IMG/VR virus record: IMGVR_UViG_3300009180_000010
Coordinates: 1-36,566 of that record
DNA: 36,566 nucleotides
Origin: a virus
Direction: 5' to 3' (one strand)
A program made the position numbers and the translations under genes. Positions 8,261-35,315 of this stretch are shown here, one piece after another. How positions within the stretch are numbered: the first letter of the stretch is position 1; each line of letters starts with the position of its first letter. The notes under the pieces are model-generated. The model searched no databases, was not told the origin of the DNA, and saw only the letters and a program-made list of their open reading frames with translations.

Positions 8261-8737
8261 ATGGGTAAAGCACCATCTATTCCGTCGGCTCCACCACCCC
8301 CAGATCCAAATGCTGTGGCACAGGCAAACGCCGAGATGTATCGAAAGAACATTGATACATATATTGAAAAATCTCCAGCAATGGCCGAACTTGAAAACAA
8401 GCTTCGCGTGCAGTATATGCCTCAACAGCGTGAACTTGAAAGGCAGTTGTCTGCGTTAGACCAAGCTGCTTCAGTTCAATCCAATCTTCAATTGGAACAG
8501 CAATATGGTGGCCAGCGCACCCTGGAAGCACTTCGCAGGCAGTTTGAATATTCTCCAGAAGCCTATGCCTTGAATAAAGGACTTGGGAAGCAATTGACAT
8601 CACAATTCTCGCGTCTTTACGGCCAGAGTCCTTATGAAGCAGTTCAACCAGAGGTTGCATTTTCAACAAATAATGGGCCTATGAATTATTACTCAAAAAT
8701 TGGAAGCAATATTTCGAATCCAAAAATAACAGCTTAA
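8261..8737 (+). CDS. Putative internal virion/ejection protein, 158 aa
   Basis: Starts 1 base after the previous stop. A Pro-rich N-terminus (APSIPSAPPPPDPN) is followed by a long charged, Gln-rich helix (residues about 30-100). No TM segment or catalytic motif is seen. It is first of four consecutive Gln/Ala-rich proteins between the tail and lysin genes, the location of ejection proteins in T7-type and related podoviruses. Function inferred from place and composition. Confidence 0.55.
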   Translation: MGKAPSIPSAPPPPDPNAVAQANAEMYRKNIDTYIEKSPAMAELENKLRVQYMPQQRELERQLSALDQAASVQSNLQLEQQYGGQRTLEALRRQFEYSPEAYALNKGLGKQLTSQFSRLYGQSPYEAVQPEVAFSTNNGPMNYYSKIGSNISNPKITA

Positions 8738-8738
8738 T

Positions 8739-10133
8739 ATGGCAACACTATCAGCAGAACAAATGGCGCTTTTGGATAAATATTATCCAGATACTGCAAG
8801 AAAAATGAGAGAGCTTGATGCAGCAAAAGATCTTCAAGCAAATTCTCCAAGTATTTTAAATAATGCATATGCTCAACAAATTGGTCAAATAGGCGACTAT
8901 GCATTGCAAAACAGACTTGGTACTCAAAATTTTACAGGCTCTCTTGCGTCACTTTCTGGAGCTAGAAATTATGGTGCATCTGATCTTGGTTCAAAATTAA
9001 ACTTCCAGGTAACAGATGACCAGATTATAAATGATTACAATACATCAAAAATAAATTCACTTAAATCAATTATTGATAGAGGGAATACACAACTTGTAGG
9101 AATTCAGCAAAAAATTGCATCTTCAAATTCACTTTTAAACAGTCTGTCAAGCAAGGATGAAAGAAGGCAACCAACTCTTGATGCAATAAAGTCATTAACA
9201 GAAGACCTATCAAGTGTAAATTCTGCAATTGCTTCAGCTCAAAAACAAGTTACAGATTTTAAGCCAATTACAGCAGCAGATACTGCTGGCCAGAAGGAAA
9301 TCACATCATTTAGGGAATATATTCAATTACCAGAAGAAAGGGCAACGCAACAATTAAAGCAGGTAGATCCAAAGGCATATGAAACAGCAGTTGCTCTTGG
9401 TGAAAAATATAGAAACTTGGCTGCCGAACCACTCCCTACTACAACATCTCAGCAGACTGAAGATCTTCGCAGCCAGCTCGAACAAGAAGCGATTAATCAA
9501 CTAAAGCTTGGATCGACTCTTGGTGCTGAAGAGCGCAGGGGATATGAACAATCCGTGCGTGCTGCTCAGACTGCTCGCGGTAATATCTTTGGAGTAGCAC
9601 CTGCAACCGAGGAAGCAGTCACGACTGGCCTACTTGGCGAACAGCGCAAGCTCGCTCGTTACGGAGCAGCCCAGCAGTTCCTGTCTTCTGGCCAGACTAC
9701 TGGTGACGCGCTTCAGCGTGATCTTGCGCTTCGTGATGCATTATTGCAGAGCAGGCTCGGAGCAGCGTCAAACTTTACTGCTAGTGGACCATCATTATAC
9801 AATCTTGGAACCGCCAGGACAAATCAACAAAATGCAGCATTCCAATCATACATCCAGGCCAACCAGGCACTTCCTGGACAATTTGGCCAAGGTGCAAGCA
9901 CAGCACAACCTTTCTATCAAACCACGAATCCGAATGCACCTCTTCAATTGCAACAGACTGCTGCATCTCTTTACAACACATTGTCAAATTATAATGCCAG
10001 CACTTATGGAAACTATCTAAATGCATATAATAACCAACCAACGGCAGCCCAGACATTTGGTCAGATTGCTGGAGGTATTGGCAATATTGCAAGCCCATTA
10101 ACAGCTCCATTTAAATCATACTCCATCCAATAA
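8739..10133 (+). CDS. Putative internal virion/ejection protein, Gln/Ala/Asn-rich
   Basis: 464 aa, 1 base after the previous gene. Residues about 100-180 are helical with coiled-coil character. Residues about 225-330 are helix-rich with many Gln, Arg and Ala. The last 120 residues are Gln/Asn/Tyr-rich and of low complexity, ending in a Gly/Ala hydrophobic stretch (FGQIAGGIGNIASPL). Low-complexity helical proteins of this size between tail and lysin genes are usually ejected into the host with the DNA. No enzymatic motif seen. Confidence 0.55.
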   Translation: MATLSAEQMALLDKYYPDTARKMRELDAAKDLQANSPSILNNAYAQQIGQIGDYALQNRLGTQNFTGSLASLSGARNYGASDLGSKLNFQVTDDQIINDYNTSKINSLKSIIDRGNTQLVGIQQKIASSNSLLNSLSSKDERRQPTLDAIKSLTEDLSSVNSAIASAQKQVTDFKPITAADTAGQKEITSFREYIQLPEERATQQLKQVDPKAYETAVALGEKYRNLAAEPLPTTTSQQTEDLRSQLEQEAINQLKLGSTLGAEERRGYEQSVRAAQTARGNIFGVAPATEEAVTTGLLGEQRKLARYGAAQQFLSSGQTTGDALQRDLALRDALLQSRLGAASNFTASGPSLYNLGTARTNQQNAAFQSYIQANQALPGQFGQGASTAQPFYQTTNPNAPLQLQQTAASLYNTLSNYNASTYGNYLNAYNNQPTAAQTFGQIAGGIGNIASPLTAPFKSYSIQ

Positions 10134-14187: not shown

Positions 14188-14573
14188 TGCGCAATAAGAA
14201 GAGGACGCAGGACCGTCTCGCCTGCACCAAAGCTTGCTCCGTCCGATCCAACAAACGCAAGATTATTCACACCTGTTCCAACTCGCGCTGTCGCGTTCGC
14301 TGTTCCAACGTAGCTTCCCCTGCAATCGACAACAGCTCCTCCACCAGGTTTAAGGAAGGTGTCGCGGATCTGAACGTAAGCTCCGCGCGGTGTAAGGTAT
14401 GTGTCACCGCATCGCACAATCGCACCTCCAGCGCTACTGGCAGTCGTCTGGTCAATGACGTAGGTATGATTTCCCCTGTAGACAGCAGCAAGAAATTCGT
14501 GTGTGACAGACTCATCCGCGAAAGATGTAAAAGAGGCTGCGAAGGTTAGGATCAATATTGTGGTTGTTTTCAT
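14184..14573 (-). CDS. Secreted protein of unknown function, signal peptide
   Basis: 129 aa on the opposite strand to all nearby genes. The N-terminus MKTTTILILTFAASFTSFADE is a clear Sec signal peptide with an AxA-like cleavage site (SFA). The mature part has Gly/Thr-rich short beta repeats with two cysteines (IVRCGDTYLTP, then VVDCRGSYVGT), suggesting a small beta-solenoid and perhaps one disulphide. Codon choice matches the neighbours, and the competing + strand frame is Arg/Cys/Ser-rich and unconvincing. It overlaps the endolysin stop by 4 bases and diverges from the gene at 14612. It could be a moron acting in the periplasm or at the surface. Confidence 0.65.
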   Translation of the reverse strand: MKTTTILILTFAASFTSFADESVTHEFLAAVYRGNHTYVIDQTTASSAGGAIVRCGDTYLTPRGAYVQIRDTFLKPGGGAVVDCRGSYVGTANATARVGTGVNNLAFVGSDGASFGAGETVLRPLLIAH

Positions 14574-14592
14574 GTGAACAAGTCTGTATTAC
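14564..14592 (+). promoter_or_regulatory. Putative sigma70-like promoter for the early arm
   Basis: TTGTTT (14564-14569), a 17-nt spacer and TATTAC (14587-14592) lie upstream of the first gene of the + strand replication arm. A start site near 14599 would leave GGAG (14602-14605) as ribosome site. The region is also the divergent junction with the secreted-protein gene. Confidence 0.4.
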
Positions 14593-14611
14593 TAAAACCT
14601 TGGAGTCAACA

Positions 14612-14995
14612 ATGAAATTATCATCACGCCAAATAGGCGCAATTGGAGTGGCTCGCGTAACTGGCGCGTTGCTCCGCTGTGGGTACAACGTGCTTGTTCC
14701 TTACGAGGATTTTGCTGGGTATGACCTGGTGGCAGAGAAGGGCGGGAAGTACTTTAGCATCCAGGTAAAGACAGCGCAGGCCATTGAGCAGGGGCGCACA
14801 AAGTATCGATTTACCACATCCATTGGAAATGGTTTTAATATACCGAAAAGGCCGATTCGCGGAGTTGACTATGTCGCATGCTGGGGGATGAGCGACGATT
14901 TATTCTGGCTTTTACCAGTAGCAAAATGCAAATCACTTACCACCAAACTATGCCCATCGAAGGGCCAAGGATGGAGGATATTCCAGAACCTATGA
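14612..14995 (+). CDS. PD-(D/E)XK nuclease-like protein, 127 aa
   Basis: The start at ATG 14612 is supported by GGAG 6 nt upstream. The N-terminal helix (RQIGAIGVARVTGALLRCGY) leads to the core VPYEDFAGYDLV...FSIQVKTA. Candidate catalytic residues are E32, D38 and Q51-x-K53, the arrangement of restriction-endonuclease-fold proteins related to intron endonucleases and small resolvases. Such enzymes cut DNA. It is the first gene of the replication arm, so host DNA degradation, intermediate resolution or defence are all possible. Overlaps the next gene by ATGA. Confidence 0.7.
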   Translation: MKLSSRQIGAIGVARVTGALLRCGYNVLVPYEDFAGYDLVAEKGGKYFSIQVKTAQAIEQGRTKYRFTTSIGNGFNIPKRPIRGVDYVACWGMSDDLFWLLPVAKCKSLTTKLCPSKGQGWRIFQNL

Positions 14996-15217: not shown

Positions 15218-15451
15218 ATGTTGCCAGGGGACATTAAGATTAGGATTGGAAAACTTCACCAAAAGCAACAGAACGTACTTCTCAATCTCGTATGCGGAGC
15301 TGCTTGTTGCGAAACTCCAAACAATACCTTCACGATAACAAACCGCGCCATCAATGAATTCATTGATCGGTGCAGGGATCAAAACCCTGTTTTGACATTA
15401 ACAGGAGGTTTTGAAACAGACATAACAATGGAGGTAATATGGGAAAAATAA
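15218..15451 (+). CDS. Hypothetical 77-aa protein
   Basis: ATG 15218 directly follows AGGTGG. The N-terminal half has three cysteines (LVCGAACCETP), and the C-terminal half is a helix followed by a beta pair (VLTLTGGF). No TM or signal peptide. It overlaps the resolvase-like gene by 13 bases, so the two are probably coupled. No family recognised. Confidence 0.65.
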   Translation: MLPGDIKIRIGKLHQKQQNVLLNLVCGAACCETPNNTFTITNRAINEFIDRCRDQNPVLTLTGGFETDITMEVIWEK

Positions 15452-15882
15452 ACAGTCGGGCAAAGGGTGCAGCAGGCGAGCGTGAGCTTGCCAACTATCT
15501 TCGCGAACAAGGCTGGCAGAAGGCGAGGCGCACACAGCAGTATGCAGGCAATCCAGAAGGTGGATCTGGAGACGTGGTGTGCGAGAACTTCCCATTCCAC
15601 ATTGAGGGCAAGCGATGCCAGGCGCTCAAGCCAGAGGAGTGGATGGAGCAGGCCAAGCGCGACTGTCCTTCTGGCAAAATCCCAGCAGTATTCTTTCGGC
15701 GCAATGGGCGCAAGGAGTGGTTAGTCATACTCACGGCGGATAGCGTGTGCGAATTAGCTAGACAGGTGGCGCCTGCCAATGTCAGTATCGAGTATGTCAA
15801 AAATCAACCCACACATACAACAGTCGCGCAGGGCTATTACGTCCAGCAGTCTGATACACCAACTTTTAACCCCAACATCTGA
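15439..15882 (+). CDS. Holliday junction resolvase-like endonuclease
   Basis: 147 aa, start supported by GGAGGT immediately upstream. The motif order matches archaeal-Hjc-like phage resolvases: RAKGAAGERELANYLRE (E14), GGSGDV (D45), then FHIEGKRC (E56, K58). It would cut branched DNA made during replication and recombination or before packaging. It sits beside SSB and RecB-like exonuclease genes, consistent with a recombination module. The last 30 residues are a disordered Thr/Gln-rich tail. Confidence 0.8.
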   Translation: MGKINSRAKGAAGERELANYLREQGWQKARRTQQYAGNPEGGSGDVVCENFPFHIEGKRCQALKPEEWMEQAKRDCPSGKIPAVFFRRNGRKEWLVILTADSVCELARQVAPANVSIEYVKNQPTHTTVAQGYYVQQSDTPTFNPNI

Positions 15883-17717: not shown

Positions 17718-17905
17718 ATAAAACACAGGAAGAAATCGACAAGGAATGGGATGAGTTTTTCAGTAAACCTCGTCCGTGGCTATATTCTAATTACGGAGAC
17801 AAACCAATAGATGGTGAAGAGGAAGGCGAGGATGGAGGCAATTCAGAAAGCTTCCAAAAGTTCTGCGATCACAGCGGAAACAACAGCTATCCCAAATCGT
17901 GCTGA
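17714..17905 (+). CDS. Hypothetical acidic 63-aa protein
   Basis: Coupled at both ends: ATGA with the previous gene, and the next gene starts at GTG 17899 inside it. The protein has an acidic helix (NKTQEEIDKEWDEFF), a Trp/Tyr patch, then an acidic Gly-rich linker and a Cys/His-containing tail (FCDHSGNNSYPKSC). No family recognised. Likely disordered in large part. Confidence 0.6.
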   Translation: MNKTQEEIDKEWDEFFSKPRPWLYSNYGDKPIDGEEEGEDGGNSESFQKFCDHSGNNSYPKSC

Positions 17906-18303
17906 AAACAGCTCTTGCGGTTCTTTTAATAACAACATCTACGGTTATGACTGCAAATGTCATAATCGAGATGGAGCAACCAAAGAAGAAGATAAAGGTT
18001 CGCGTGACTGGCTACTGGCCAGGAGAGGACCACTACACCAGCAAACTCCAAAGCAGCGAAGGAGTGCGCTTGAGACCTGGACGGCATTGCGCTACGGATC
18101 ACAAGGTCATCCCAGCGTGGAGCAAGGTCAAGATTGTTGGGTACTCGCAGGAATGGCTCGTGGTGGATACTGGCACAGCGGTCATTCAGAGAAAGGCCAG
18201 CGGGTCAACCAGATTGCCTGTATTAGATTTGTTTTTTAAATCTGAAAAAGATTACGAAAAGGCTCGACTACCAAAATACGCGACGGTAGAGATCTCGAAA
18301 TGA
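17899..18303 (+). CDS. Exported 3D-domain (double-psi beta-barrel) cell-wall protein
   Basis: 134 aa from GTG 17899. Residues 1-20 (MLKTALAVLLITTSTVMTAN) form a signal peptide or membrane anchor. Residues about 34-134 are a 3D domain: VRVTGYW, then CATDHKVIP, LVVDTGTAV and LPVLDLFF contain the three signature aspartates D67, D90 and D110. This fold is the catalytic core of MltA-type lytic transglycosylases and related wall enzymes. The protein could remodel peptidoglycan in the periplasm, for lysis or for blocking later infections. It is followed by a TM microprotein and a GT8-like gene in tight overlap. Confidence 0.82.
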   Translation: MLKTALAVLLITTSTVMTANVIIEMEQPKKKIKVRVTGYWPGEDHYTSKLQSSEGVRLRPGRHCATDHKVIPAWSKVKIVGYSQEWLVVDTGTAVIQRKASGSTRLPVLDLFFKSEKDYEKARLPKYATVEISK

Positions 18304-18479
18304 CAATCTTATCGAAAATATTCTATCACCTGGGAAACATCGTAAGCGTAACTATACTTCCACTTGGAGTTGGCTGGAAGCTATATCAAAAGTTAATGCT
18401 TATATCGGTAGACCTAGACACCAACTTTGATGTATGGAAAGAAGTAAAACAACGTAAAACAAGGAGAAAAAAGAAATGA
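18300..18479 (+). CDS. Small membrane protein, 59 aa
   Basis: ATG 18300 overlaps the 3D-domain stop (ATGA) and TGA 18477-18479 overlaps the GT8-like start (ATGA), which strongly supports a real gene. Residues about 8-28 are hydrophobic (FYHLGNIVSVTILPLGVGW), giving one membrane segment, followed by a soluble stretch and a very basic tail (KQRKTRRKKK). Possibly an inner-membrane partner for the neighbouring exported or glycosyltransferase protein. No family recognised. Confidence 0.65.
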   Translation: MTILSKIFYHLGNIVSVTILPLGVGWKLYQKLMLISVDLDTNFDVWKEVKQRKTRRKKK

Positions 18480-19156
18480 AGCGCGCTGTTGTAACGCAGG
18501 CATTCGGTGACAAATGGCATGAACTGCTAAAGATCACGCAGCCAAGGATGGAAGCGTACGCGAAGCGGTACGCGGTTGATTTTATGGCAATCACAAAACC
18601 AGTCACCGATCCAGTCCAGTACTCCAAGCTGGCAATCGGAAACATCATGCTGGCGCGCGGATACGAGCAGGTGACGTTCTTTGATGCAGACGTGCTGGTG
18701 ACGGAAGACTGCGAGGATATTGGCGGACCAGACATGGATGGCAGTCAGCATTTCTTCTGCGCCCTGGATGAAGGCGAGTTCTTAGACAGGAAGAAAGGTA
18801 TGGTCGATCTGGCCAATGGATTTGGCGGGAAGATCACGCCAAGGTTCTACGTCAATACAGGCGTGTTCGTCGTGAGCAATAAGTTCCTTGGACTATTCTC
18901 ATGCCCTCCGTTTGGTTGTTATCCAAACCACTTTGGCGAGCAGACATGGATGAACATCCAGGCGCATTTATGGAATATGGAGCTGACTCCGCTCGACCCA
19001 GCCTACAATTGTATGACCAGCGTCGAATCGCACTTTGGCCTGGATAAGTACAAAGATGCATTCTGCCTACACTATGCTGGCCAATCATTTGACATGGACA
19101 AGATGATTGAACTTGTTAAGGCCGACGATGCGAAGCTAAAGGAGCTTGGACGATGA
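18476..19156 (+). CDS. Glycosyltransferase, GT8-like (GT-A fold)
   Basis: 226 aa with AAGGAG ahead of the start. The N-terminus KRAVVTQAFGDKW is the nucleotide-sugar-binding strand. FFDADVLV carries the metal-binding DxD (D70-A-D72), RFYVNTGVFVVS is the acceptor-side motif, FGEQTWMN supplies acidic residues, and LHYAGQ holds the late His (H199). This matches glycogenin/galactosyltransferase-type GT8 enzymes. The acceptor is unknown: host surface glycan, a virion protein or modified DNA. Overlaps its neighbours by ATGA on both sides. Confidence 0.8.
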   Translation: MKRAVVTQAFGDKWHELLKITQPRMEAYAKRYAVDFMAITKPVTDPVQYSKLAIGNIMLARGYEQVTFFDADVLVTEDCEDIGGPDMDGSQHFFCALDEGEFLDRKKGMVDLANGFGGKITPRFYVNTGVFVVSNKFLGLFSCPPFGCYPNHFGEQTWMNIQAHLWNMELTPLDPAYNCMTSVESHFGLDKYKDAFCLHYAGQSFDMDKMIELVKADDAKLKELGR

Positions 19157-19374
19157 CTACTGTCAAGGTTGTCAAGGAAGCTGGCAAGTGGCGCATCCAC
19201 ACGATGGCAGGAAACGTGATTGGACCTCGCCTATGGGGGGCTGTGCCAGCGAATGGACTGCCTCCACTTACCGACATATTTGAAACGAAGGAGGAAGCGC
19301 AGGATGCAGCATTCCTTTGGAACGAGTACGCCAAATGGTGCGAGATGAATCGCAGCAAGAGAAAGAGACGATGA
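19153..19374 (+). CDS. Hypothetical basic 73-aa protein
   Basis: ATGA overlap with the GT8-like gene and ATGA with the next. Beta strands (VKVVKEAGKWRIHTMAGNVI) are followed by a helix starting ETKEEAQDAAFLWNEYAKW and a basic tail (RSKRKRR). The fold resembles small DUF-type nucleic-acid-associated phage proteins, but no family can be named. Confidence 0.65.
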   Translation: MTTVKVVKEAGKWRIHTMAGNVIGPRLWGAVPANGLPPLTDIFETKEEAQDAAFLWNEYAKWCEMNRSKRKRR

Positions 19375-19688
19375 GGACCAGTCATTTTGTAAAAGGCGAT
19401 TACGATGACAGGTTGTGCCAGCTCGCTGGTGAGGTGGCCAAGCAGGCGATTGACGACGTTCGAATGCTCCAGCGCCGTGGCGTTCTGGATGGTCTTACGA
19501 TCAAGGAGGACTTCTACAAGGACGACATAAGCCTAAACGACTGCCAGGAGTATAGGAACATCCAGCAGGTCAGAAAGCTTGTGAAGGACTTTAAGAACGG
19601 AGTCGTTTGGTTCTGGTGCAGGGCTGCTGGTGTTCACATCGACAATAGGAGCCTACTGCGAAGGATGAGAGAGATGGCAAATGCTTAA
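19371..19688 (+). CDS. Hypothetical 105-aa helical protein
   Basis: Start at the ATGA overlap. Mostly helical and charged, with two Cys and a Trp-rich strand (VVWFWCRAAGVHI) near residue 80. Its end contains the start of a TM microprotein (8-base overlap). No catalytic motif or membrane segment. Function unknown. Confidence 0.65.
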   Translation: MRTSHFVKGDYDDRLCQLAGEVAKQAIDDVRMLQRRGVLDGLTIKEDFYKDDISLNDCQEYRNIQQVRKLVKDFKNGVVWFWCRAAGVHIDNRSLLRRMREMANA

Positions 19689-19821
19689 CGATATCATGGG
19701 AATCATATTTGCGATTTGCTGTATAGGTGTTTGCATATCCATCATTGTAATGATCGCGTTGGTTGGATTGTATATGGCATACAGAATGTTTAACATAATA
19801 AAGGACGAGATAATCAAATGA
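19681..19821 (+). CDS. TM microprotein, 46 aa
   Basis: ATG 19681 lies inside the end of the preceding gene, and TGA 19819-19821 overlaps the oxygenase start (ATGA). Almost the whole peptide is hydrophobic (IMGIIFAICCIGVCISIIVM, then IALVGLYMAY), making one or two membrane passes, with a short charged tail (IIKDEIIK). The coupling on both sides argues for a real gene. Role unknown. Confidence 0.62.
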   Translation: MLNDIMGIIFAICCIGVCISIIVMIALVGLYMAYRMFNIIKDEIIK

Positions 19822-20387
19822 GCGAAAAGAAATATTCCCAGAAGGTTTTGACTGCTGCTGTTGAGCGGTATGTGCTGACGCCAACGCAATGCGCCATGAT
19901 CCGCCAGGATGCAGAGGTCATTGGCATGAAACGCGCGACCGTTATGAAGAGGGGTGGCGGACACAGCATATCGCTTGCCAGGACATGCTCGTCGTGCTGG
20001 ATACCTTTCTCGCCTCATTACAAGTGGCTTTATTCGATCATGCTTGAGCTGACAAAGGCGATCAATGAGGAGAATTGGAACTTCGACGTTCCTGGTGTCC
20101 AGCAGTTGCAGATCCTTAAGTACTCTCCGCTCCAGCAGTTCTGGTGGCACTTCGACACGTTTACTGGAAGCGACCGCAAACTTACTGCGGTTGTCAATCT
20201 GTCCGATCCTAGCGAGTACCTTGGCGGAGGATTGCAGGTTAAGGCGGATATCGATAACGGGCAGTTTATGCTAGAGCAGGGAGCTGGGTGCTGGTTCCCA
20301 TCTTATATCGAACATCGCGCCAGGGCGCCTATATGGGGAACGCGATGGGTGCTTGTAGCTTGGTTGACTGGACCAGCATGGCGATGA
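19818..20387 (+). CDS. 2-oxoglutarate/Fe(II) dioxygenase (prolyl 4-hydroxylase-like)
   Basis: 189 aa. The metal triad is visible: FWWHFDTF gives H111-x-D113, YIEHRAR gives H166, and the 2OG-binding Arg is R176 in GTRWVLVAWL. YLGGGLQVK and WFPSYIEHRA match the P4H/PKHD core. These enzymes hydroxylate proteins, small molecules or nucleobases. It sits between two glycosyltransferase genes and two TM microproteins, so a hydroxylate-then-glycosylate pathway is conceivable but unproven. Start by ATGA overlap. Confidence 0.85.
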   Translation: MSEKKYSQKVLTAAVERYVLTPTQCAMIRQDAEVIGMKRATVMKRGGGHSISLARTCSSCWIPFSPHYKWLYSIMLELTKAINEENWNFDVPGVQQLQILKYSPLQQFWWHFDTFTGSDRKLTAVVNLSDPSEYLGGGLQVKADIDNGQFMLEQGAGCWFPSYIEHRARAPIWGTRWVLVAWLTGPAWR

Positions 20388-20467
20388 CAGCCGACACGGC
20401 ATTCGCGGTTATTGGTGTGATATCAATCTGTCTTGGATTGCTCACATTGTTATGGGGTAAGGACTGA
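20384..20467 (+). CDS. TM microprotein, 27 aa
   Basis: ATG 20384 overlaps the oxygenase stop (ATGA) and TGA 20465-20467 overlaps the next start (TGATG). The peptide is a single membrane helix, TAFAVIGVISICLGLLTLLW, with a Lys-Asp end. An ATG at 20378 would add two residues. Very short, so only the double coupling and the membrane character support it. Confidence 0.5.
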   Translation: MTADTAFAVIGVISICLGLLTLLWGKD

Positions 20468-20895
20468 TGCTTACTCCGAACAGAAAGCCAGTCGGGTTCC
20501 ACGAAAGCGAACAGGATATTGAGAACGAGAAGCGAATTGTGGAAGCATTCGCCAAGCATTGCGGTGGTGAGCCAAGGTTCATGCCAAAGGCCTACACGTT
20601 CGACGCGATGATTGTGCGGGGTGAGAAATGCGCGCTGGTAGATGCCAGGAAGCGAAGCAATGAGATTAACAAGTATTCGACGCTGTGCCTGTCACTCCAG
20701 AAGTATATATCCCTAAAGGCATACGCTGCTTTCGCTCCTACGTTCTACGTTGTCGAGTGGGCCGATGCTATGGGGTTTTATGAGATAAAGGAGGACAGCA
20801 AGCTTCCGATATCCTACATGTCGCGCAACTCTGGCAATCCCAGAGATAACGAGCCTGTGGTGCAGATTCCGATTGCAGACTTTAAAAGGTTTTAA
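20467..20895 (+). CDS. PD-(D/E)XK-like protein, 142 aa
   Basis: Begins in a TGATG overlap. The core reads AYTFDAMIVRGEKCALVDARKR: an Asp (D46) followed by a hydrophobic strand ending D-x-R/K, then a helix (YSTLCLSLQKYISLKAYAAF) and strand TFYVVEWAD. This is the layout of restriction-endonuclease-fold proteins that often accompany phage replication, although the usual Lys is part of an Arg-Lys-Arg cluster. It could be a nuclease or a degenerate relative. Adjacent genes give no firm role. Confidence 0.5.
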   Translation: MLTPNRKPVGFHESEQDIENEKRIVEAFAKHCGGEPRFMPKAYTFDAMIVRGEKCALVDARKRSNEINKYSTLCLSLQKYISLKAYAAFAPTFYVVEWADAMGFYEIKEDSKLPISYMSRNSGNPRDNEPVVQIPIADFKRF

Positions 20896-20896
20896 G

Positions 20897-21115
20897 ATGC
20901 TCCAATTAAATCCAGAGATGTGGGTGATGACGCCCAAGGGTGAGGGATTGGCATTCCTTGTCACAGATTATGGGATGGACCACAACAAGATTTTTACCGT
21001 GATGCTGAATTGTGGTGACATTCTCGATTTTGACATTAAGGATTGCAGGCGATGCGAGAATCCGTCATTCTGTATTAAGGCAAATAAACCGCCTATTCCA
21101 CATTATGGAAATTAA
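20897..21115 (+). CDS. Hypothetical 72-aa protein with Cys residues
   Basis: Starts 1 base after the previous stop. Beta-rich (MWVMTPKGEGLAFLVTDYGM) like a small SH3-type barrel, then four Cys around DCRRCENPSFCIK that might bind metal. It overlaps the next gene by 11 bases. No family recognised. Confidence 0.62.
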   Translation: MLQLNPEMWVMTPKGEGLAFLVTDYGMDHNKIFTVMLNCGDILDFDIKDCRRCENPSFCIKANKPPIPHYGN

Positions 21116-21287
21116 CGAAAATCAATACATTCAAGTTGACGGATGCATTGTCGCTCCTGGTGACTGGTTCGCTTGTATTGATGACTCTCCAGAGACAAGC
21201 GCGATTTATTATGTCGGCCAAGATGGTCGCCAGTATGCGTCGTATTTGTCGGAAACATTCCCAAACATCTTCGTCAGTAAACCATAA
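21105..21287 (+). CDS. Hypothetical 60-aa protein
   Basis: ATG 21105 lies inside the previous gene. A small beta-rich protein with IQVDGCIVAPGDWFACIDD and a GQDGR turn. No TM segment. Function unknown. Confidence 0.58.
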   Translation: MEINENQYIQVDGCIVAPGDWFACIDDSPETSAIYYVGQDGRQYASYLSETFPNIFVSKP

Positions 21288-21306
21288 ACAGAAAGGAAAC
21301 TAAACA

Positions 21307-21492
21307 ATGCCACTAGGAAGTAACGTATCAAAAAACATGCATGAACTTGCCATGGACAACAAGAAGAAGGGCAAGGCTCGCGGTGCTGGCGGTGTTCCTC
21401 GCTCGCAGAAGCAGATGATTGCGATCGCGCTGTCTGCTGCTGGGAAGAGCAACAAGTCGCCTCGTAAGTTTAAAGCCAAGTCTGGAATGTGA
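21307..21492 (+). CDS. Small basic phage protein, KKKGKARGAGG type
   Basis: 61 aa with AGAAAGGAAA upstream of the start. The sequence MPLGSNVSKNMHELAMDNKK, then a Gly/Arg/Lys patch and QKQMIAIALSAAGKS, matches a short basic family that recurs in many environmental phages, often seen near structural or early genes. High positive charge suggests nucleic-acid contact. No defined function. Overlaps the next start as TGATG. Confidence 0.72.
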   Translation: MPLGSNVSKNMHELAMDNKKKGKARGAGGVPRSQKQMIAIALSAAGKSNKSPRKFKAKSGM

Positions 21493-21704
21493 TGGAAGTT
21501 GAGGCCAAGAACCGCCTCAGATGGGCGCGCGACATCCTTCTCTCTGCTCGCGAAAAGCTGGCAGTAGAGAGGGATCGCGCGAACCATGGACACGCGATTG
21601 ACATTATTCAGATCATTGCGCTGGTCGATGCAGCAGCTTTGGTCTGCAAGGAAATAACAGGAGAAAATAATGAAAACACACAACGAGATAGCAATGCAGG
21701 TTAA
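21492..21704 (+). CDS. Hypothetical 70-aa helical protein
   Basis: ATG 21492 overlaps the upstream stop (TGATG); a GTG one codon earlier is possible. Two helices: WARDILLSAREKLAVERDR and IIQIIALVDAAALVCKEI. No motif. It overlaps the next gene by 35 bases. Confidence 0.6.
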   Translation: MEVEAKNRLRWARDILLSAREKLAVERDRANHGHAIDIIQIIALVDAAALVCKEITGENNENTQRDSNAG

Positions 21705-21861
21705 GAAGTACTGGGACAACGATGGTTCTAGGTGGAAGCTGTGGGTCGAGGCTGGCGGATTCCGCACAGAGATTTTCTGTTATGACACGACGGATGCCAA
21801 TGCCTATGCCAAGTGCATTCGGGAGCTGGTAAGCCATGCCTACCAGTTGCAAAGCGTATGA
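21670..21861 (+). CDS. Hypothetical 63-aa protein
   Basis: Good ribosome site (AGGAG, 8 nt before ATG). A short alpha/beta protein with WKLWVEAGGFRTEIFCYD, then a helix (ANAYAKCIRELVSHAYQL). No family recognised. Ends in an ATGA overlap with the next gene. Confidence 0.62.
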   Translation: MKTHNEIAMQVKKYWDNDGSRWKLWVEAGGFRTEIFCYDTTDANAYAKCIRELVSHAYQLQSV

Positions 21862-22133
21862 GCATACGAGAAGAGATTGTCGATCACTTTGGCGAACCTG
21901 CTGAAACAATGCTGTTCGCAGATGGATTCGATGACGCAATCATCGGAGTGGGAAGCACGTTCGGCGGGAGTCTGTGCGCTGTTTACGATACCGACGAGAT
22001 CATTGAGATCCTTATGAAGCAAGGCATGGATTACGCAGAGGCGCTGGAACACTTCGATTATAATATTGCAGGATCGTATGTGGGGGAGCAGACTCCGATC
22101 TTCATGCATAAAATAGAAAGTGAAACCAAGTGA
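21858..22133 (+). CDS. Conserved phage protein of unknown function, 91 aa
   Basis: ATGA start. The features MLFADGFDDAIIGVG, LCAVYDTDEIIEILMKQGM and FDYNIAGSYVGEQTPIF occur as a compact family seen across many unrelated phages, usually in early regions. No catalytic motif is apparent; acidic residues cluster in the DGFDDA loop. A regulatory or host-binding role is possible. The end overlaps a GTG-start TM gene (GTGA). Confidence 0.7.
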   Translation: MSIREEIVDHFGEPAETMLFADGFDDAIIGVGSTFGGSLCAVYDTDEIIEILMKQGMDYAEALEHFDYNIAGSYVGEQTPIFMHKIESETK

Positions 22134-22264
22134 GCGCTCTCTTGGATTGGATCATCGTTGGAGCAGGATTGGCCATAGGTAGACTTCTTGTGGCGATTGC
22201 TGTTATTACGATAGGCATCGCAATTCTGGCAGCGTTCTTTATTTACGAGGAGAAAACAAAATGA
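22130..22264 (+). CDS. TM microprotein, 44 aa
   Basis: GTG 22130 overlaps the upstream stop (GTGA), and TGA 22262-22264 overlaps the GT9-like start (ATGA). The first 37 residues are hydrophobic with one central Arg (DWIIVGAGLAIGR, then LLVAIAVITIGIAILAAFFI), so a long or double membrane pass. Ends in EEKTK. Position just before a glycosyltransferase suggests a membrane partner, as for the 59-aa protein before the GT8-like gene. Confidence 0.6.
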   Translation: MSALLDWIIVGAGLAIGRLLVAIAVITIGIAILAAFFIYEEKTK

Positions 22265-23403
22265 AACTATGGACCAATAACACACCAGGGGTCCACGTTG
22301 TGGACGATAATAAATTGTGGCCACGTTGTAGCTACATATTGCCAGATGAGTTGACTGGAGAGACGTTCAAGGATGGCGTCCCTGTTCCTCATAAGATCAA
22401 GCCGTATTACCCAGGAAGGGCTGAAGGTGGATCGACTGCTGTCTACCGCGCTGGAGCCATTGGTGACGCAATCATGGCCACAGGTATTGTGCGATACCTG
22501 GTGGACAACTCTGGTGGGGCCGTGGACATTTACTGTCCTGCTCGCAACATGTCTCTGTTCGCTGGTCTTGGTGCGAATGCCTATCCGCTTCCGCCCACGC
22601 TAGAAGCATGGGAGTCATACTACGCTCATGTCCCGCTCGACGATCTGTTCTCTGGCAAGGTTGGTGGAACCGAGCTAGGCACAGGGCCTGGATGCCACTA
22701 TGACAGGATTTACACATGGATGGGTGCTGAAGGTTTGGTGGCGGATGTATCGGCAAAGGTTGGAGAGAGGAAGCTTGTCGATCCAAAGTATAAGCGACCG
22801 CACCTCTACGTTGTCCAACCAGATTACGAGGAACTGAAGAAGATGGGACGCTGGCCGTTGCCAGATCCTTACTTCGTCTACCACGTCTCGTCTTCTGGTC
22901 CTACCCGCACCTACCCACCGCAACTTGGCAGGCTGGCAGTCCAGGCGCTGCTCGAAGAGTTTCCAAAGCATCATGCGGTCATTATCGGGCTGGATCGATC
23001 AATTGATTTCCACGTCGATCATCCGCGCATTGTTGATCTATTCAACGCGACATCCAGCGTGCGTTCATTGTTTCCGATCGTGCATGGCGCTGACTTTGTT
23101 GTCGCACCAGACTCGTCGGTCAATCATATGGCTGCTGGCCTGGATACTGCGTGCATCAGTCTATGGGGGTCATATGACCCGATGGATCGGTGCAAGTATT
23201 ATCCAAGGTCCTATCCAGTCTTCGCACCAGAGGTTTGTCCGCACGCACCTTGCAGGCCACATGGCGCGTTGCCTCAATCCAAGTGCAAGGACGCAAGCAA
23301 CAAGACCAAAGGCACGCAGTACTGGTGCAACGCGCTTAGAAACATCACGGCGGATATGATCGTAGAGAAAGCAAAGAAGGCGATGGAGGAGGACAAGCAG
23401 TAG
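22261..23403 (+). CDS. Glycosyltransferase, GT9-like (heptosyltransferase type, GT-B)
   Basis: 380 aa, ATGA start. YRAGAIGDAIMATGIVRYL (about 62-80) is the Gly-rich acceptor-side loop with the conserved Asp of GT9 enzymes. FVYHVSSSGPTRTYPP marks the start of the C-terminal domain, and VVAPDSSVNHMAAGLDTACI, then SLWGSYDPMDR, is the nucleotide-sugar site. Four Cys near the end (C326, C331, C342, C356) are also common in phage GT9-like proteins. Bacterial relatives add heptose to LPS; the phage acceptor is unknown. Followed by a branched RNA structure. Confidence 0.85.
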   Translation: MKLWTNNTPGVHVVDDNKLWPRCSYILPDELTGETFKDGVPVPHKIKPYYPGRAEGGSTAVYRAGAIGDAIMATGIVRYLVDNSGGAVDIYCPARNMSLFAGLGANAYPLPPTLEAWESYYAHVPLDDLFSGKVGGTELGTGPGCHYDRIYTWMGAEGLVADVSAKVGERKLVDPKYKRPHLYVVQPDYEELKKMGRWPLPDPYFVYHVSSSGPTRTYPPQLGRLAVQALLEEFPKHHAVIIGLDRSIDFHVDHPRIVDLFNATSSVRSLFPIVHGADFVVAPDSSVNHMAAGLDTACISLWGSYDPMDRCKYYPRSYPVFAPEVCPHAPCRPHGALPQSKCKDASNKTKGTQYWCNALRNITADMIVEKAKKAMEEDKQ

Positions 23404-25604: not shown

Positions 25605-25719
25605 TCACCTGCGGTGTTCCGTAGTGAAACTTCAAACTGGCGGGACCAGAAAACAAATGACACGGCATGGGTGGTTCACCGCCCATACCTGCCAAGGCGT
25701 GGTGGTGCGGTGGGATGTG

Positions 25720-25728
25720 TGATACAAT
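25720..25728 (+). promoter_or_regulatory. Putative extended -10 element before 25736
   Basis: TGA-TACAAT: a TGn extension followed by a 5-of-6 match to TATAAT. There is no good -35. The expected start of transcription is at about the ATG at 25736, so the transcript could lack a leader. Confidence 0.3.
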
Positions 25729-25735
25729 GGGCGAA

Positions 25736-25870
25736 ATGAAACAAGGTCTATACGCAAATATCAACGCTCGCCGTAAGGCTGGCACCAGTCGTCCTAAATC
25801 TAAAAGCACGATCTCACCTAGGGTGTATCGTGTGATGAAAGCGAAAAAGGGTGGCTTCGCACCGAGATAG
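25736..25870 (+). CDS. Small basic phage protein, KQGLYANINARRKAG type, 44 aa
   Basis: ATG 25736 chosen because MKQGLYANINARRKAGTS is the usual start of this short family, which is found in many environmental phages with a Lys/Arg-rich C-terminus. An ATG at 25727 adds three residues. Highly basic, no Cys, likely binds nucleic acid or anionic partners. It heads a run of four small genes after the origin-like region. It overlaps the next gene by 20 bases. Confidence 0.68.
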   Translation: MKQGLYANINARRKAGTSRPKSKSTISPRVYRVMKAKKGGFAPR

Positions 25871-27979: not shown

Positions 27980-28714
27980 TTAATTTGCCCTAGCTATCGC
28001 AAGGGCCTTTTCCTTCTGCGCACCATGCGGAAGAAATCCAATTATGACCGAACGATCCGCGCGCTGACATAGTCCGCAGGTTGAGCATGTCGTCCCCTCC
28101 CTAGTCTGGGCAGGGCAAACGACAACTTTCCTCCCCCTGGGAGTCGTCGTGTTCCTTTTATCCTCATATGGTAAAAGGGTCGTGACTGGTCCAATGCCCA
28201 GGCTCGCCAGCTTGTCGGCGTGATTCAGTCCGTTCGCGCTTAAATTGATCGTGAACCCTTGCGCGTTTGCGCTCGCAATCGCTTTCCTATTTTCTTCAAT
28301 CGGTCCAGACTGCGAATCCAGAACAGGTTTATGGGTATAGGTGAAGCCCTTGCGCCCTTGGTTCGCGTTCACAAGGTCAGCCAGGAATTGAGGGAGTATC
28401 TCCTCATTATCTCCTGGCAAATCCCCTGCCTGGTTGTGGCGCCAAAGTTGCCCCCTTGGCAATGAGCGGATTTCATCCAGGAAGCATCCCCAGGCGCTTC
28501 CACGGACTCCCCTGCTTACCTTGTCCCAATGCCATTTAATCGGGCCGATGACATAGCATCCAGCGCCTTTTAAAGGGCAAGAATCTGGGCAAGTAGATTG
28601 GGGAGATGTCGAGACTGGAATCGGTCCAGTCTTTTCGTTCGAGCTACTCCTGGTAAGATGAAACTTTTGTTCCTGGTCGTTCCATCCAATAATCTTTGCG
28701 GGCGCCTTGTTCAT
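27980..28714 (-). CDS. Cys-rich phage protein, putative metal/Fe-S-binding (244 aa)
   Basis: Start at 28714 chosen for the ATGA overlap with the 82-aa gene. The N-terminal half has STCPDSCPLKGAGCY (C-x3-C-x6-C), then LWRHNQAGDLPG and FTYTHKP. The C-terminal part has NLSANGLNHADKLASLGIGP and a second cluster VVCPAQ...CSTCGLCQ. This combination recurs in an uncharacterised phage family. The first cluster and barrel-like strand order loosely recall radical-SAM or Gp37-type (DUF5131) proteins, but the C-x3-C-x2-C motif is absent. Function unknown; metal binding is likely. Confidence 0.7.
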   Translation of the reverse strand: MNKAPAKIIGWNDQEQKFHLTRSSSNEKTGPIPVSTSPQSTCPDSCPLKGAGCYVIGPIKWHWDKVSRGVRGSAWGCFLDEIRSLPRGQLWRHNQAGDLPGDNEEILPQFLADLVNANQGRKGFTYTHKPVLDSQSGPIEENRKAIASANAQGFTINLSANGLNHADKLASLGIGPVTTLLPYEDKRNTTTPRGRKVVVCPAQTREGTTCSTCGLCQRADRSVIIGFLPHGAQKEKALAIARAN

Positions 28715-28959
28715 GCGGTCCCCCATGCTTTTTCTTTGATCCATTGAATGACCTTCCAGGCATAATATGGAGAAGTAAACTCCGCAAGATATTCAAAAAT
28801 ATATCTTTCGTGGATTCTTCCAAAGGCGCCGTTGTTTAAAATTGCGTCGTTGTAATAGTCGCGGATTTCCAATTTAACTATGTCCCCGCAACTCTTCGCG
28901 CGAATTACTCCGCCCGCGCAACATGCTCCAATTCTCCAGGTCTTTGTTCGTCTTGTCAT
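28711..28959 (-). CDS. Hypothetical 82-aa protein
   Basis: ATG at 28959, directly after the TAA of the 58-aa gene. N-terminal Cys (IGACCAGGVIRAKSCGD), then aromatic-rich helix-strand segments (YIFEYLAEFTSPYYAWKVI). It ends in an ATGA overlap with the Cys-rich 244-aa gene, so the two may act together. No family recognised. Confidence 0.62.
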   Translation of the reverse strand: MTRRTKTWRIGACCAGGVIRAKSCGDIVKLEIRDYYNDAILNNGAFGRIHERYIFEYLAEFTSPYYAWKVIQWIKEKAWGTA

Positions 28960-30240: not shown

Positions 30241-31677
30241 GTGGGCAAAACAACTAAGCCTCCCAAACGCACGCCAGAGGAGATTTTAGCAGAAATCCAA
30301 TCACCAGCAGGATTTGCAAAACACGTCCTTGGACTTGAGTTATATGATTGGCAGAGAAAGGTTTTGCGTGATCTGCAAGACAAAGATTGCCGAGTTGCAC
30401 TCAAAGCAGCGAACGGATCTGGCAAGACAAGCACAGTCATCGCGTCAATTTTAATTTGGCATGCGTTCTGTTTTAAGGGAAGCATTGCTACGACAACCGC
30501 AGGCGTATGGCGACAAGTCGAGAAACAATTGTGGCCTAGCCTGCGCAAACACATTGCGCGCGTAGGCGGAAATTGGGAAGTCACCTCTGGAGAAATCCGC
30601 TACATATTTCCAGACGGATCGATGAGCAGGATCGTCGGGTACAGCGCGACAGACCCAGGTCGGGCGGAAGGGTTCCATGCCGACGACCACGACACCATGC
30701 CGTTGCTGATCGTGGTGGACGAAGCCAAGTCAATCCCAGACCCTCTCTTCGAAGCCCTGTGGCGTTGCCAACCCACTCGCGTATTGCTGGCCTCCAGCCC
30801 TGGTGCGAGTACTGGCGCGTTCTATCGCGCGTTCACCAAGGAGTCAGCGATGTGGAAGAAGCACACCGTGACAGCGTTTGATTGTCCCCATATCACCAAG
30901 GCGCAGATCGACGAGGTGGTCCAGCGGTATGGCGAGAAGCACCCGCTGACCAGGTCGATGGTTTATGGCGAGTTCGTGGACATAGGGTCGGAGAGTCTTG
31001 TCATCAATTACAACTCGCTCCAGGGATGCCAGAACAGTCCTCCAGACTTTAAGCCTGGGAACAGGACGGCAGGAGTGGACTTTGCAGCAGGTGGTGACTG
31101 CAACGTGCTTTGCATTCGGGATGGAAACAAGATCCTTCCGATCATCGCTTGGCGCGAGCGGGACACCATGGCTGCGGTTGGCAAGTTCATCGTCGAGTTC
31201 AAGAAGCATGGCTTGAAAGCTGAAGACATCTATGCCGACGCCAGCGGTCTTGGAATGCCCATGTGTGATGCCTTGGCCGAGTCTGGATGGCGGGTCAATA
31301 GGGTGAACTTTGGTGGCGTGCCTCACGATGCGGATGCCTATACGAACAGGTCGGCAGAGATGTGGTTTAACATGTCTAAGAAGATTTCCGATCGTGAGAT
31401 CATACTGCCAGAGGATGACGACGAACTGATGGCGCAATTGACATGTCGCAGGACCGTGACCAACAGCAGGGGTAAGCTGGGCGTCGAATCAAAGGATTCC
31501 TTGCGCAGTAGGGGCATATCCAGCCCCGATAGGGCCGACGCATTGGCATTGTGCCTAGATGGTGGTAATGTACGCTGGGACTTGACTTTCCCTACGGAAC
31601 GGCCAACTTGGCGTACGTTAAACGATCTAATGGAACAAAACGACCCAGTTATGGCTGGGTTTGACGCAGGAGGATAA
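30241..31677 (+). CDS. terL: Terminase large subunit (packaging ATPase/nuclease)
   Basis: 478 aa from GTG 30241 with AGAGGT upstream. ATPase: AANGSGKTS (56-64) is Walker A, and LLIVVDEA (155-162) is Walker B plus catalytic Glu. Nuclease (RNase H-like): GVDFAAGGD (D280), IYADASGLG (D332) and SPDRADAL (D433). The order is typical for the Terminase_6 / large terminase group. It pumps DNA into the prohead through the portal and cuts it. The C-terminus is complete. GTG start and small subunit spacing of 13 bp support coupling. Confidence 0.93.
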   Translation: MGKTTKPPKRTPEEILAEIQSPAGFAKHVLGLELYDWQRKVLRDLQDKDCRVALKAANGSGKTSTVIASILIWHAFCFKGSIATTTAGVWRQVEKQLWPSLRKHIARVGGNWEVTSGEIRYIFPDGSMSRIVGYSATDPGRAEGFHADDHDTMPLLIVVDEAKSIPDPLFEALWRCQPTRVLLASSPGASTGAFYRAFTKESAMWKKHTVTAFDCPHITKAQIDEVVQRYGEKHPLTRSMVYGEFVDIGSESLVINYNSLQGCQNSPPDFKPGNRTAGVDFAAGGDCNVLCIRDGNKILPIIAWRERDTMAAVGKFIVEFKKHGLKAEDIYADASGLGMPMCDALAESGWRVNRVNFGGVPHDADAYTNRSAEMWFNMSKKISDREIILPEDDDELMAQLTCRRTVTNSRGKLGVESKDSLRSRGISSPDRADALALCLDGGNVRWDLTFPTERPTWRTLNDLMEQNDPVMAGFDAGG

Positions 31678-31680
31678 ACT

Positions 31681-31851
31681 ATGAACATCTGGAATTGGAT
31701 TACTGCTAACTGGCAGACCATCGTCGCTGCTGTGGGTGGCGTGGTGCTGACCGCTCGTATCATCGTCAAATTAACCCCTAGCGATATTGACAACGTGTGG
31801 CTGGAGAAGATCGTGTCTTTCCTGCGCGCTGTTGGCCTAAAGATCGACTAA
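31681..31851 (+). CDS. Small membrane protein, holin candidate, 56 aa
   Basis: ATG 31681 with GGAGGAT 6 nt upstream. After an aromatic N-terminus (MNIWNWITANW) there is one membrane helix (QTIVAAVGGVVLTARIIV), then an amphipathic charged C-terminus (WLEKIVSFLRAVGLKID). Single-TM holins of this size exist (class III), and the next two frames look like spanins, so a lysis cassette is likely. The endolysin, however, is far away (13624). An alternative is a small virion membrane protein. Confidence 0.65.
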   Translation: MNIWNWITANWQTIVAAVGGVVLTARIIVKLTPSDIDNVWLEKIVSFLRAVGLKID

Positions 31852-31858
31852 TAATTCT

Positions 31859-32047
31859 GTGCTTCGTGCGCTGCTTGAGATCATCTCAGCCATATTCCGT
31901 ATCATCCCAGGATGGCGGGAGAAGCGCACACAAGATTTCGAAAATGAGTGGCATCGCAATCGTGATGCCATTAACAGCGATCTTGGCCGTAATGCTTGGT
32001 GGGTGCGTGACAACTCATCCAATAACTCAGACGAGCGGGATAGTTGA
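31859..32047 (+). CDS. Putative i-spanin (Rz-like), 62 aa
   Basis: GTG 31859, 7 bp after the holin candidate. The N-terminal 19 residues are hydrophobic (MLRALLEIISAIFRIIPGW), enough for a membrane or amphipathic anchor. The remainder is charged and helical (REKRTQDFENEWHRNRDAIN). A lipoprotein gene starts inside it in another frame (31944), the nested layout of Rz/Rz1. It is shorter than typical Rz and the anchor is weak, so the call is tentative. Together they would fuse inner and outer membrane at lysis. Confidence 0.52.
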   Translation: MLRALLEIISAIFRIIPGWREKRTQDFENEWHRNRDAINSDLGRNAWWVRDNSSNNSDERDS

Positions 32048-32177
32048 AGAGTTGATGAAAGATCCGACCTACATCGAAATCCGCAGAGGTACGCCTGGCG
32101 CGCGCGAATGGGCAAGGAAAGCTTTGAATGCTGTCAACGATCTTTCGTATGAATTGAAGACCGAGAGGAATAAATAA
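31944..32177 (+). CDS. Lipoprotein, putative o-spanin (Rz1-like), 77 aa
   Basis: ATG 31944 is nested in the preceding gene, sharing 104 bases in a different frame. A classic lipoprotein signal, MSGIAIVMPLTAILAVMLGGC, ends in the lipobox LGGC (Cys21). The mature part is about 57 residues with THPITQTSG, then a helical charged C-terminus (REWARKALNAVNDLSYELKT). With the gene before it, it matches an embedded or overlapping spanin pair. It is longer and less Pro-rich than lambda Rz1. One base separates it from the portal gene. Confidence 0.7.
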   Translation: MSGIAIVMPLTAILAVMLGGCVTTHPITQTSGIVEELMKDPTYIEIRRGTPGAREWARKALNAVNDLSYELKTERNK

Positions 32178-34750: not shown

Positions 34751-34779
34751 TTGACTTCAGCGCTCAAGGCGCTTGTATT
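34751..34779 (+). promoter_or_regulatory. Putative promoter for the methyltransferase gene
   Basis: TTGACT (34751-34756), a 17-nt spacer and TGTATT (34774-34779). The spacer contains an inverted repeat, AGCGC-TCAAG-GCGCT (34759-34773), which could be an operator or hairpin. The -10 lies 5 nt from ATG 34785, again pointing to a leaderless message. Confidence 0.45.
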
Positions 34780-34784
34780 CTCGG

Positions 34785-35315
34785 ATGGCAGTTCCAGTAA
34801 TGCGCGATGCATTCCAAGCAGAAGGTCTTGCTAAATTATGCAAGTGGGCGAATCAAGGTGGAGCTACTGGAAAGTGCGTTGAAATTGGATCGTATAGCGG
34901 GGAAGGCACGATTGTTCTTGCCGACTATTTCAAAGAAGTTCTAGCAGTAGATCCATGGGTTAACGGGTATGATCCAGACGATGTGGCAAGCCACCAATGC
35001 CCAATGGAAGACGTTTTTAATGCTTTTCAAGAAAGAACCAAGGCCAAAGGAAACATAAGTTTCTCTCGAGGTAAAAGCCTAGATGCCCTGGAGTTTGTTG
35101 CAGACGGATCGCTCGATCTTGTCTATGTAGACGGTGACCATAGGTACGAAGGTGCACTTGCAGATCTTAAAGGATGGTTGCCAAAGATCAGAAAAGGCGG
35201 GTGTATGACTGGACACGACTTTAGCTTCCCAACTGTCCAGAAGGCATTATCAGAGGTGTTTAAGGGTGATTACTTGGCCCTGTTCCAGGGTGATAGTTGG
35301 GGATACATTATATGA
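34785..35315 (+). CDS. Class I SAM-dependent methyltransferase
   Basis: 176 aa from ATG 34785 (a TTG at 34773 is less likely). CVEIGSYSGEGTIVLADYF is motif I (SAM binding), VLAVDPW the motif II acid, and LVYVDGDHRYEGALADLKGW with GGCMTGHDF match the Methyltransf_24 group (catechol/sugar-type O-methyltransferases). The target is unknown: virion or host glycans, or a protein. Its placing between portal and scaffold genes, with its own promoter-like element, is unusual. The end overlaps the next gene by ATGA. Confidence 0.8.
   Translation: MAVPVMRDAFQAEGLAKLCKWANQGGATGKCVEIGSYSGEGTIVLADYFKEVLAVDPWVNGYDPDDVASHQCPMEDVFNAFQERTKAKGNISFSRGKSLDALEFVADGSLDLVYVDGDHRYEGALADLKGWLPKIRKGGCMTGHDFSFPTVQKALSEVFKGDYLALFQGDSWGYII

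Follow-up and report, generated by a model that had tools for sequence, protein, structure and literature searches.

The PBCV-1 protein A064R combines two glycosyltransferase (GT) domains, both rhamnosyltransferases, with one sugar O-methyltransferase domain, and it is linked to the capsid glycan (PMC9614988). Virion glycans made by phages have a precedent in the mycobacteriophages Che8 and Rita, whose own glycosyltransferases have been proposed, or were shown, to glycosylate capsid proteins according to Freeman et al. 2023 (cited in PMC11256854). TibC is a protein heptosyltransferase that needs a four-cysteine iron finger for its activity (PMC4358343). Here, we analyze the whole IMG/VR virus record IMGVR_UViG_3300009180_000010 (36,566 bases), which we will call the window. 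It encodes a GT8-like and a GT9-like glycosyltransferase and a class-I S-adenosylmethionine (SAM)-dependent methyltransferase. We tentatively favor the view that these enzymes give the phage a short O-methylated glycan, most likely on its own capsid or tail protein.

Like A064R, the window combines two virus-encoded GTs with a putative O-methyltransferase, and domain 1 of A064R (GT-A fold) is the best solved match to the GT8-like protein. In contrast to A064R, the three activities are encoded by separate genes, the second GT is of the GT-B/GT9 type, the host is a bacterium, and the identity is 14–15%. Che8 and Rita are unrelated to the window. The GT9-like protein shares the GT-B fold, the GD catalytic motif, and a D...H...A motif with WaaC, WaaF, and TibC/BAHT, but it is only 11–13% identical to WaaC, WaaF, and TibC. 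Like TibC, it has four invariant C-terminal cysteines, in a region that is poorly modelled; their spacing is C-x4-C-x10-C-x13-C, instead of C-x2-C-x15-C-x11-C in TibC (Cys-339/342/358/370). TibC and BAHT have an N-terminal beta-barrel and a beta-hairpin thumb; in the GT9-like protein, the N-terminal 45 residues are conserved but unmodelled. The GT9-like protein also differs in having no autotransporter substrate.

The glycosyltransferase pair

We gathered about 157 loci related to the window, which include phages that are not all independent of each other. Seventeen of the relatives are full-length, which gives 18 records (36–41 kb) with the window. These are uncultured bacterial viruses, mostly from freshwater. 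We added 12 more records, of which six were chosen via the methyltransferase alone and the others via virion or GT genes, for a total of 30.

Both GTs are present in 18/18 of the initial records, which is partly a selection effect, as these records were found mainly through the GTs. For the same reason, the six records that were selected by the methyltransferase alone are a cleaner test, and all six contain both GTs. Across the 30 records, the GT8-like gene is present in all (12/12 of the added records) and the GT9-like gene in 29 (11/12 of the added records); the one miss comes from a contig that stops 1.6 kb beyond the GT8-like gene. Wherever a locus continued for 7 kb past one GT, the second GT was there as well (60/60 and 59/59; some of these loci overlap).

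In the divergent record G026, homologs of the GT8-like protein (28% identity) and the GT9-like protein (34% identity) are encoded by genes that overlap by 4 bases, followed by a 2-oxoglutarate (2OG)-dependent oxygenase (56% identity). Most simply, the GT pair would be the old unit, and other genes, such as those for C5 DNA methyltransferases and PDDEXK nucleases, would have moved in between later. This ancestral arrangement rests on one divergent genome and is not proven. A divergent GT9-like query, used to reach beyond the first family, yielded just four loci.

The original prediction, made from the window's sequence, described a cassette of overlapping genes within 5.5 kb, namely an exported 3D-domain protein, two GTs of different folds, and an Fe(II)/2OG hydroxylase. 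The open reading frames are as it described, and the GTs do have different folds, GT-A and GT-B, as judged by AlphaFold models and Foldseek. The four genes do not form a tight operon, as a PDDEXK_14 nuclease gene and about nine small open reading frames lie between them. The prediction suggested looking for the same collinear set in relatives, and this holds for the GT pair only: the 2OG gene is found in 13/18 records and the 3D-like gene in 7/18. We therefore rejected the four genes as one cassette. The scenario that would have refuted the prediction, in which relatives carry these genes one by one at scattered places, does not apply to the GT pair; for the 3D-like and 2OG genes, it holds in part.

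The AlphaFold2 model of the GT8-like protein has a high predicted local distance difference test (pLDDT) score of 90. Its top Foldseek matches in PDB are 2p6w, 2p73, and 2p72, which are A064R domain 1 (E = 2.7e-9, template modelling (TM) score 0.6), followed by GT8, GT6, and glycogenin structures. The model confirms a GT-A fold. The score against PF01501 (GT8) falls below the cut-off (21.1 bits instead of 24.3; E = 2.5e-4), so we do not classify the protein as a GT8. Its DxD motif (D70, D72) and H199, the downstream metal-binding histidine, are invariant across 47 aligned homologs. A profile search of PDB sequences gave a single match, which was not significant (Skp1 galactosyltransferase, E = 0.25).

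The GT9-like protein scores above the cut-off for PF01075 (24.1 bits versus 22). G68-D69, D284/H289, and C326/C331/C342/C356 are invariant across 57 homologs, and the four cysteines are retained in G026. The model has a pLDDT of 73 and is poor at residues 1–44 and 329–355; most of the four-cysteine region is below 50. The best Foldseek match is WaaF (1psw), followed by a Veillonella GT9, WaaC, and TibC, which confirms a GT-B fold of the GT9 type for the modelled protein.

The median ratio of nonsynonymous to synonymous substitution rates (dN/dS) is 0.047 for the GT8-like gene and 0.065 for the GT9-like gene. For the two GTs and the 2OG gene, the ratios span 0.03–0.11, and the median for terminase is 0.031. 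The body of the GT8-like protein (residues 1 to ~175) from G002 and G004 is nearer to another clade, while their terminase and GT9-like proteins are not. This points to exchange of GT8-like alleles between lineages. The best tree agrees with an allele swap that breaks clade 1, but the approximately unbiased (AU) test was not significant (p = 0.11).

We found no protein relative of either GT among 50,697 named phage records, and the 15–26 kb stretch of the window has no DNA match in named phages. When we searched contigs from GTDB for a cellular source of the GTs, we found no relative of the GT8-like protein and just one partial match, at 30% identity, to the GT9-like protein.

In the relatives, DNA-modification genes are concentrated in a hotspot that covers the space between the GTs and beyond them. 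They include genes for C5 methyltransferases and Mom-family proteins, a Dam-like gene, and a QueD homolog (L015:7228-8004, L036, L127:10464-11825, L131, L155, L073:4516-5205, L127:14142-14750, and L112:6331-6777). L112, which has the QueD homolog, also has a possible TGT/DpdA-like neighbor, as seen by eye only. A C5 DNA methyltransferase is present in 13/18 records, and it adjoins the GT9-like gene in the loci that we read. None of these C5 or Mom genes was found in the window.

The methyltransferase of the head cluster

The SAM methyltransferase passes the cut-off for PF13578 (Methyltransf_24) and lies among the virion genes. Wherever a locus shows that side, the upstream neighbor is the portal gene (70/70) and the downstream neighbor is the capsid gene (38/38). 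The methyltransferase is present in 28/30 records, including all 12 of the added ones, and has a median dN/dS of 0.062. Like the two GTs, it is under purifying selection. In the remaining two records (G004 and G006), its slot is occupied by an FkbM methyltransferase (PF05050, 6.8e-19). A scaffold-like gene and the capsid gene flank the replacement (L181:9795-10595 and L185:17-736). Because one class of methyltransferase was replaced by another in the same slot, these genes might carry out a conserved O-methylation of a small molecule or a sugar. The best match among PDB sequences is weak (6g7d, E = 0.002 and 0.0004); we take 6g7d to be a mycobacterial sugar 1-O-methyltransferase. We propose that the methyltransferase is a sugar O-methyltransferase and the third member of the core set.

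Possible acceptors of the proposed glycan

If the three enzymes (encoded from 18476, 22261, and 34773) form a functional core, they would act in the host cytoplasm. We found no Epimerase-family gene in any of the 18 records, so they would probably use nucleotide sugars from the host. The GT9-like enzyme would add a sugar, the GT8-like enzyme would extend it, and the methyltransferase would methylate it; we infer the order, the sugars, and the acceptor. A glycan on the particle would shield it or tune its adsorption. The original prediction listed both virion glycosylation and remodelling of the host envelope, and we regard both as plausible. We consider a virion protein to be a more likely acceptor than the core of the host's lipopolysaccharide (LPS) because the enzymes are nearly universal in phages that lack lysogeny genes, because the methyltransferase is in the head cluster, and because of the architectures of A064R and TibC.

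Several observations weigh against a glycan on the virion. The GTs are in a replication-side operon, away from the virion genes, and across 18 genomes, the GT8-like alleles do not match the alleles of the virion genes. GT8 and GT9 are classical LPS-core families. The match to A064R is of fold only (TM score 0.6, 14–15% identity) and does not tell us the acceptor; nor would the four-cysteine tail, which may occur in other GT9 proteins. The acceptor, donor, and product are hypothetical, and a glycan shared by the methyltransferase and the GTs is inferred from their co-conservation.

The main competing explanation is that, during infection, the GTs work on the inner side of the cytoplasmic membrane, where they modify the LPS core of the host and mask the receptor, which would lead to superinfection exclusion or protect the progeny, while the O-methyltransferase finishes this glycan or is unrelated. 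We view this as possible but less likely. Besides the families of the GTs, it would fit the best fold matches of the GT9-like protein (WaaF and WaaC), the apparent swapping of GT8-like alleles between lineages, as expected for a modifier of a surface antigen (although AU p = 0.11), and a Gram-negative host, which is suggested by a PG_binding_3-type endolysin and by a lipobox protein encoded between the terminase and portal genes. On the other hand, the methyltransferase keeps to the head cluster. No integrase was found in 17/18 records of this lytic-looking group, and exclusion genes carried by every member would be less expected in lytic phages. The GtrA flippase of Gtr-type O-antigen conversion is absent from all 18 records, although core modification does not require one. 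Another alternative, which we think improbable, is that the GTs and the methyltransferase are unlinked auxiliary genes with separate functions. In the linear record, the methyltransferase and the GTs lie in different gene clusters about 11–16 kb apart, and the sugar specificity assigned to the methyltransferase depends on a weak PDB match. But the genes occur jointly in 28/30 records with a functional replacement in the other two, and the GT pair was never apart in 119 locus comparisons.

Two more proposals involve the 2OG oxygenase. It and the GTs might hydroxylate and then glycosylate a protein, as for Skp1, in which prolyl hydroxylation is followed by the addition of sugars, or for mimivirus collagen. 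The oxygenase does resemble prolyl 4-hydroxylases, it is near the GT8-like gene (whose Skp1 galactosyltransferase match was not significant), and it is also found 3' of the GT9-like gene in G026. Every genome that lacks it has class-B alleles of the virion genes at 8261 and 8739, which is a weak, post hoc observation. However, class-B genomes with the oxygenase exist (G008, G009, G014, L226, and L233), and 5/18 records have intact GTs and no oxygenase, so we judge this proposal to be quite improbable. The same five records argue against the hydroxylation of a DNA base followed by its glycosylation, which the original prediction had raised and which we consider very unlikely. These genes do adjoin replication genes, and the GT region of the relatives includes the C5 DNA methyltransferases, a Mom-family gene above the cut-off in 1/18 records, and the QueD homolog of L112. 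But the 2OG protein is similar to prolyl 4-hydroxylases, not to TET/JBP, and none of the 18 records encodes a homolog of thymidylate synthase or hydroxymethylase (PF00303); in phage Thanatos, such a homolog occurs together with a candidate DNA GT (PMC12838424). Furthermore, if the DNA were glycosylated, the additional DNA methyltransferases, which vary among the relatives, would be superfluous, and the T4 DNA glucosyltransferase is not among the top 50 fold matches listed.

A bolder form of the virion-glycan proposal, which we regard as doubtful, is that this widespread, uncultured lytic group obligately coats its particles with its own O-methylated glycan by means of a phage-specific GT-A/GT-B pair, with the GT9-type enzyme priming a virion protein, the GT-A enzyme extending the chain, and the head-cluster enzyme methylating it. 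If so, virion glycosylation would be obligatory in an abundant phage group, probably with Gram-negative hosts, and would not be a peculiarity of giant viruses and mycobacteriophages. The two GT families, for which we found no close cellular relative, would then serve as test subjects. This shifts the focus from the exchangeable 2OG and 3D-like genes to the GTs and the methyltransferase, which are nearly always kept.

Accessory genes and other features of the window

Table 1. Features of the window discussed in the text.
Feature	Position	Strand	Comment
Exported 3D-domain-like protein	17899..18303	+	accessory; hydrophobic N-terminus; closest relatives only
Possible transmembrane microprotein, weak	18300..18479	+	maximum 19-residue hydropathy 1.47
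GT8-like GT-A glycosyltransferase, 226 amino acids	18476..19156	+	core gene
Small protein, 73 amino acids	19153..19374	+	directly 3' of GT8-like gene; 18/18 records; dN/dS 0.037
Conserved protein, 123 amino acids	19317..19688	+	18/18 records; weak phrog_25342
Transmembrane microprotein, 46 amino acids	19681..19821	+	hydropathy 3.11
2OG-Fe(II) oxygenase, prolyl-4-hydroxylase-like	19818..20387	+	accessory; PF13640 6e-9, phrog_61 4e-23
Transmembrane microprotein	20288..20467	+	overlaps end of 2OG gene; hydropathy 2.46
PDDEXK_14 nuclease	20467..20895	+	accessory; PF24579 8e-16
Transmembrane microprotein	22130..22264	+	directly before and overlapping GT9-like gene; hydropathy 2.97; homolog in 30/157 loci
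GT9-like GT-B glycosyltransferase, 380 amino acids	22261..23403	+	core gene; four invariant C-terminal cysteines
Very basic small conserved protein (KPGLYANINARRKAGTSRPKS...)	25667-25870		3' of helicase; most relatives
DUF7227 gene	27980-28744	-	E = 7e-89; in some relatives only
Lipobox (LGGC) small protein	31797-32177		between terminase and portal; possible candidate outer spanin
Class-I SAM methyltransferase (Methyltransf_24)	34773..35315	+	between portal and major capsid genes; PF13578 E = 1.5e-19

The 2OG hydroxylase, the 3D-like protein, and the nuclease are exchangeable accessories of the same operon. The predicted intact HxD...H...R motif of the hydroxylase was confirmed: the protein is above the PF13640 cut-off, and H111-x-D113, H166, and R176 are invariant across 36 homologs. 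A profile search of PDB matched prolyl 4-hydroxylase 5c5t (1e-5), and there was no match to the TET/JBP family in Pfam, PHROGs, or PDB sequences. The gene's median dN/dS is 0.029. It belongs to the same PHROG family as the 2OG-Fe(II) oxygenases of aquatic phages, which many cyanophages carry; 282 phage records gave a match, but the best match is about 30% identical, and the window's gene is an exchangeable neighbor of a GT pair. As for a collagen-like substrate of the oxygenase and the GTs, we found no GXY repeats in the seven virion proteins tested.

The virion genes at 8261-8737 and 8739-10133 have two allele classes, which were exchanged across clades. All of the class-A genomes that we saw contain the 2OG gene, while class B is mixed, even within clade 1 (L226). 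Since class B is mixed, we keep a tie between the 2OG gene and the virion allele class as a lead only.

The assignment of the 3D-like protein is weaker and rests on three invariant aspartates and weak profile matches. As predicted, all three aspartates are there (D67, D90, and D110, invariant in 7 homologs), but the window's protein does not match PF06725, and one homolog has a sub-threshold hit (E = 0.096). When the alignment of the 3D-like proteins was used as a profile against PDB sequences, no match was significant. The 3D-like and PDDEXK_14 genes are each found in seven of the 18 records, all from the closest clade.

Three transmembrane microproteins had been predicted next to these genes. 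Those at 19681, 20288, and 22130 have strong hydrophobic segments, and a fourth, at 18300, is weak. In L013, L015, L073, and L127, unrelated-looking transmembrane open reading frames are found at the position of the 46-residue microprotein. The 73-residue protein has no match in Pfam.

Elsewhere, the window encodes capsid, tail, tail spike or fiber, and internal virion proteins, as well as endolysin, exonuclease, primase/helicase, terminase, and portal; its major capsid protein is encoded at 240-1268. The closest relatives of the large terminase (30241-31677) among named phages are from Akkermansia phages (37% identity), hinting at a host from the Verrucomicrobiota. Three families of PD-(D/E)XK nuclease (PDDEXK_5, _15, and _14) are present in this one 36.6 kb phage, at 14558-14995, 15439-15882, and 20467-20895. 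In G026, a basic protein similar to the one at 25667-25870 adjoins the exonuclease.

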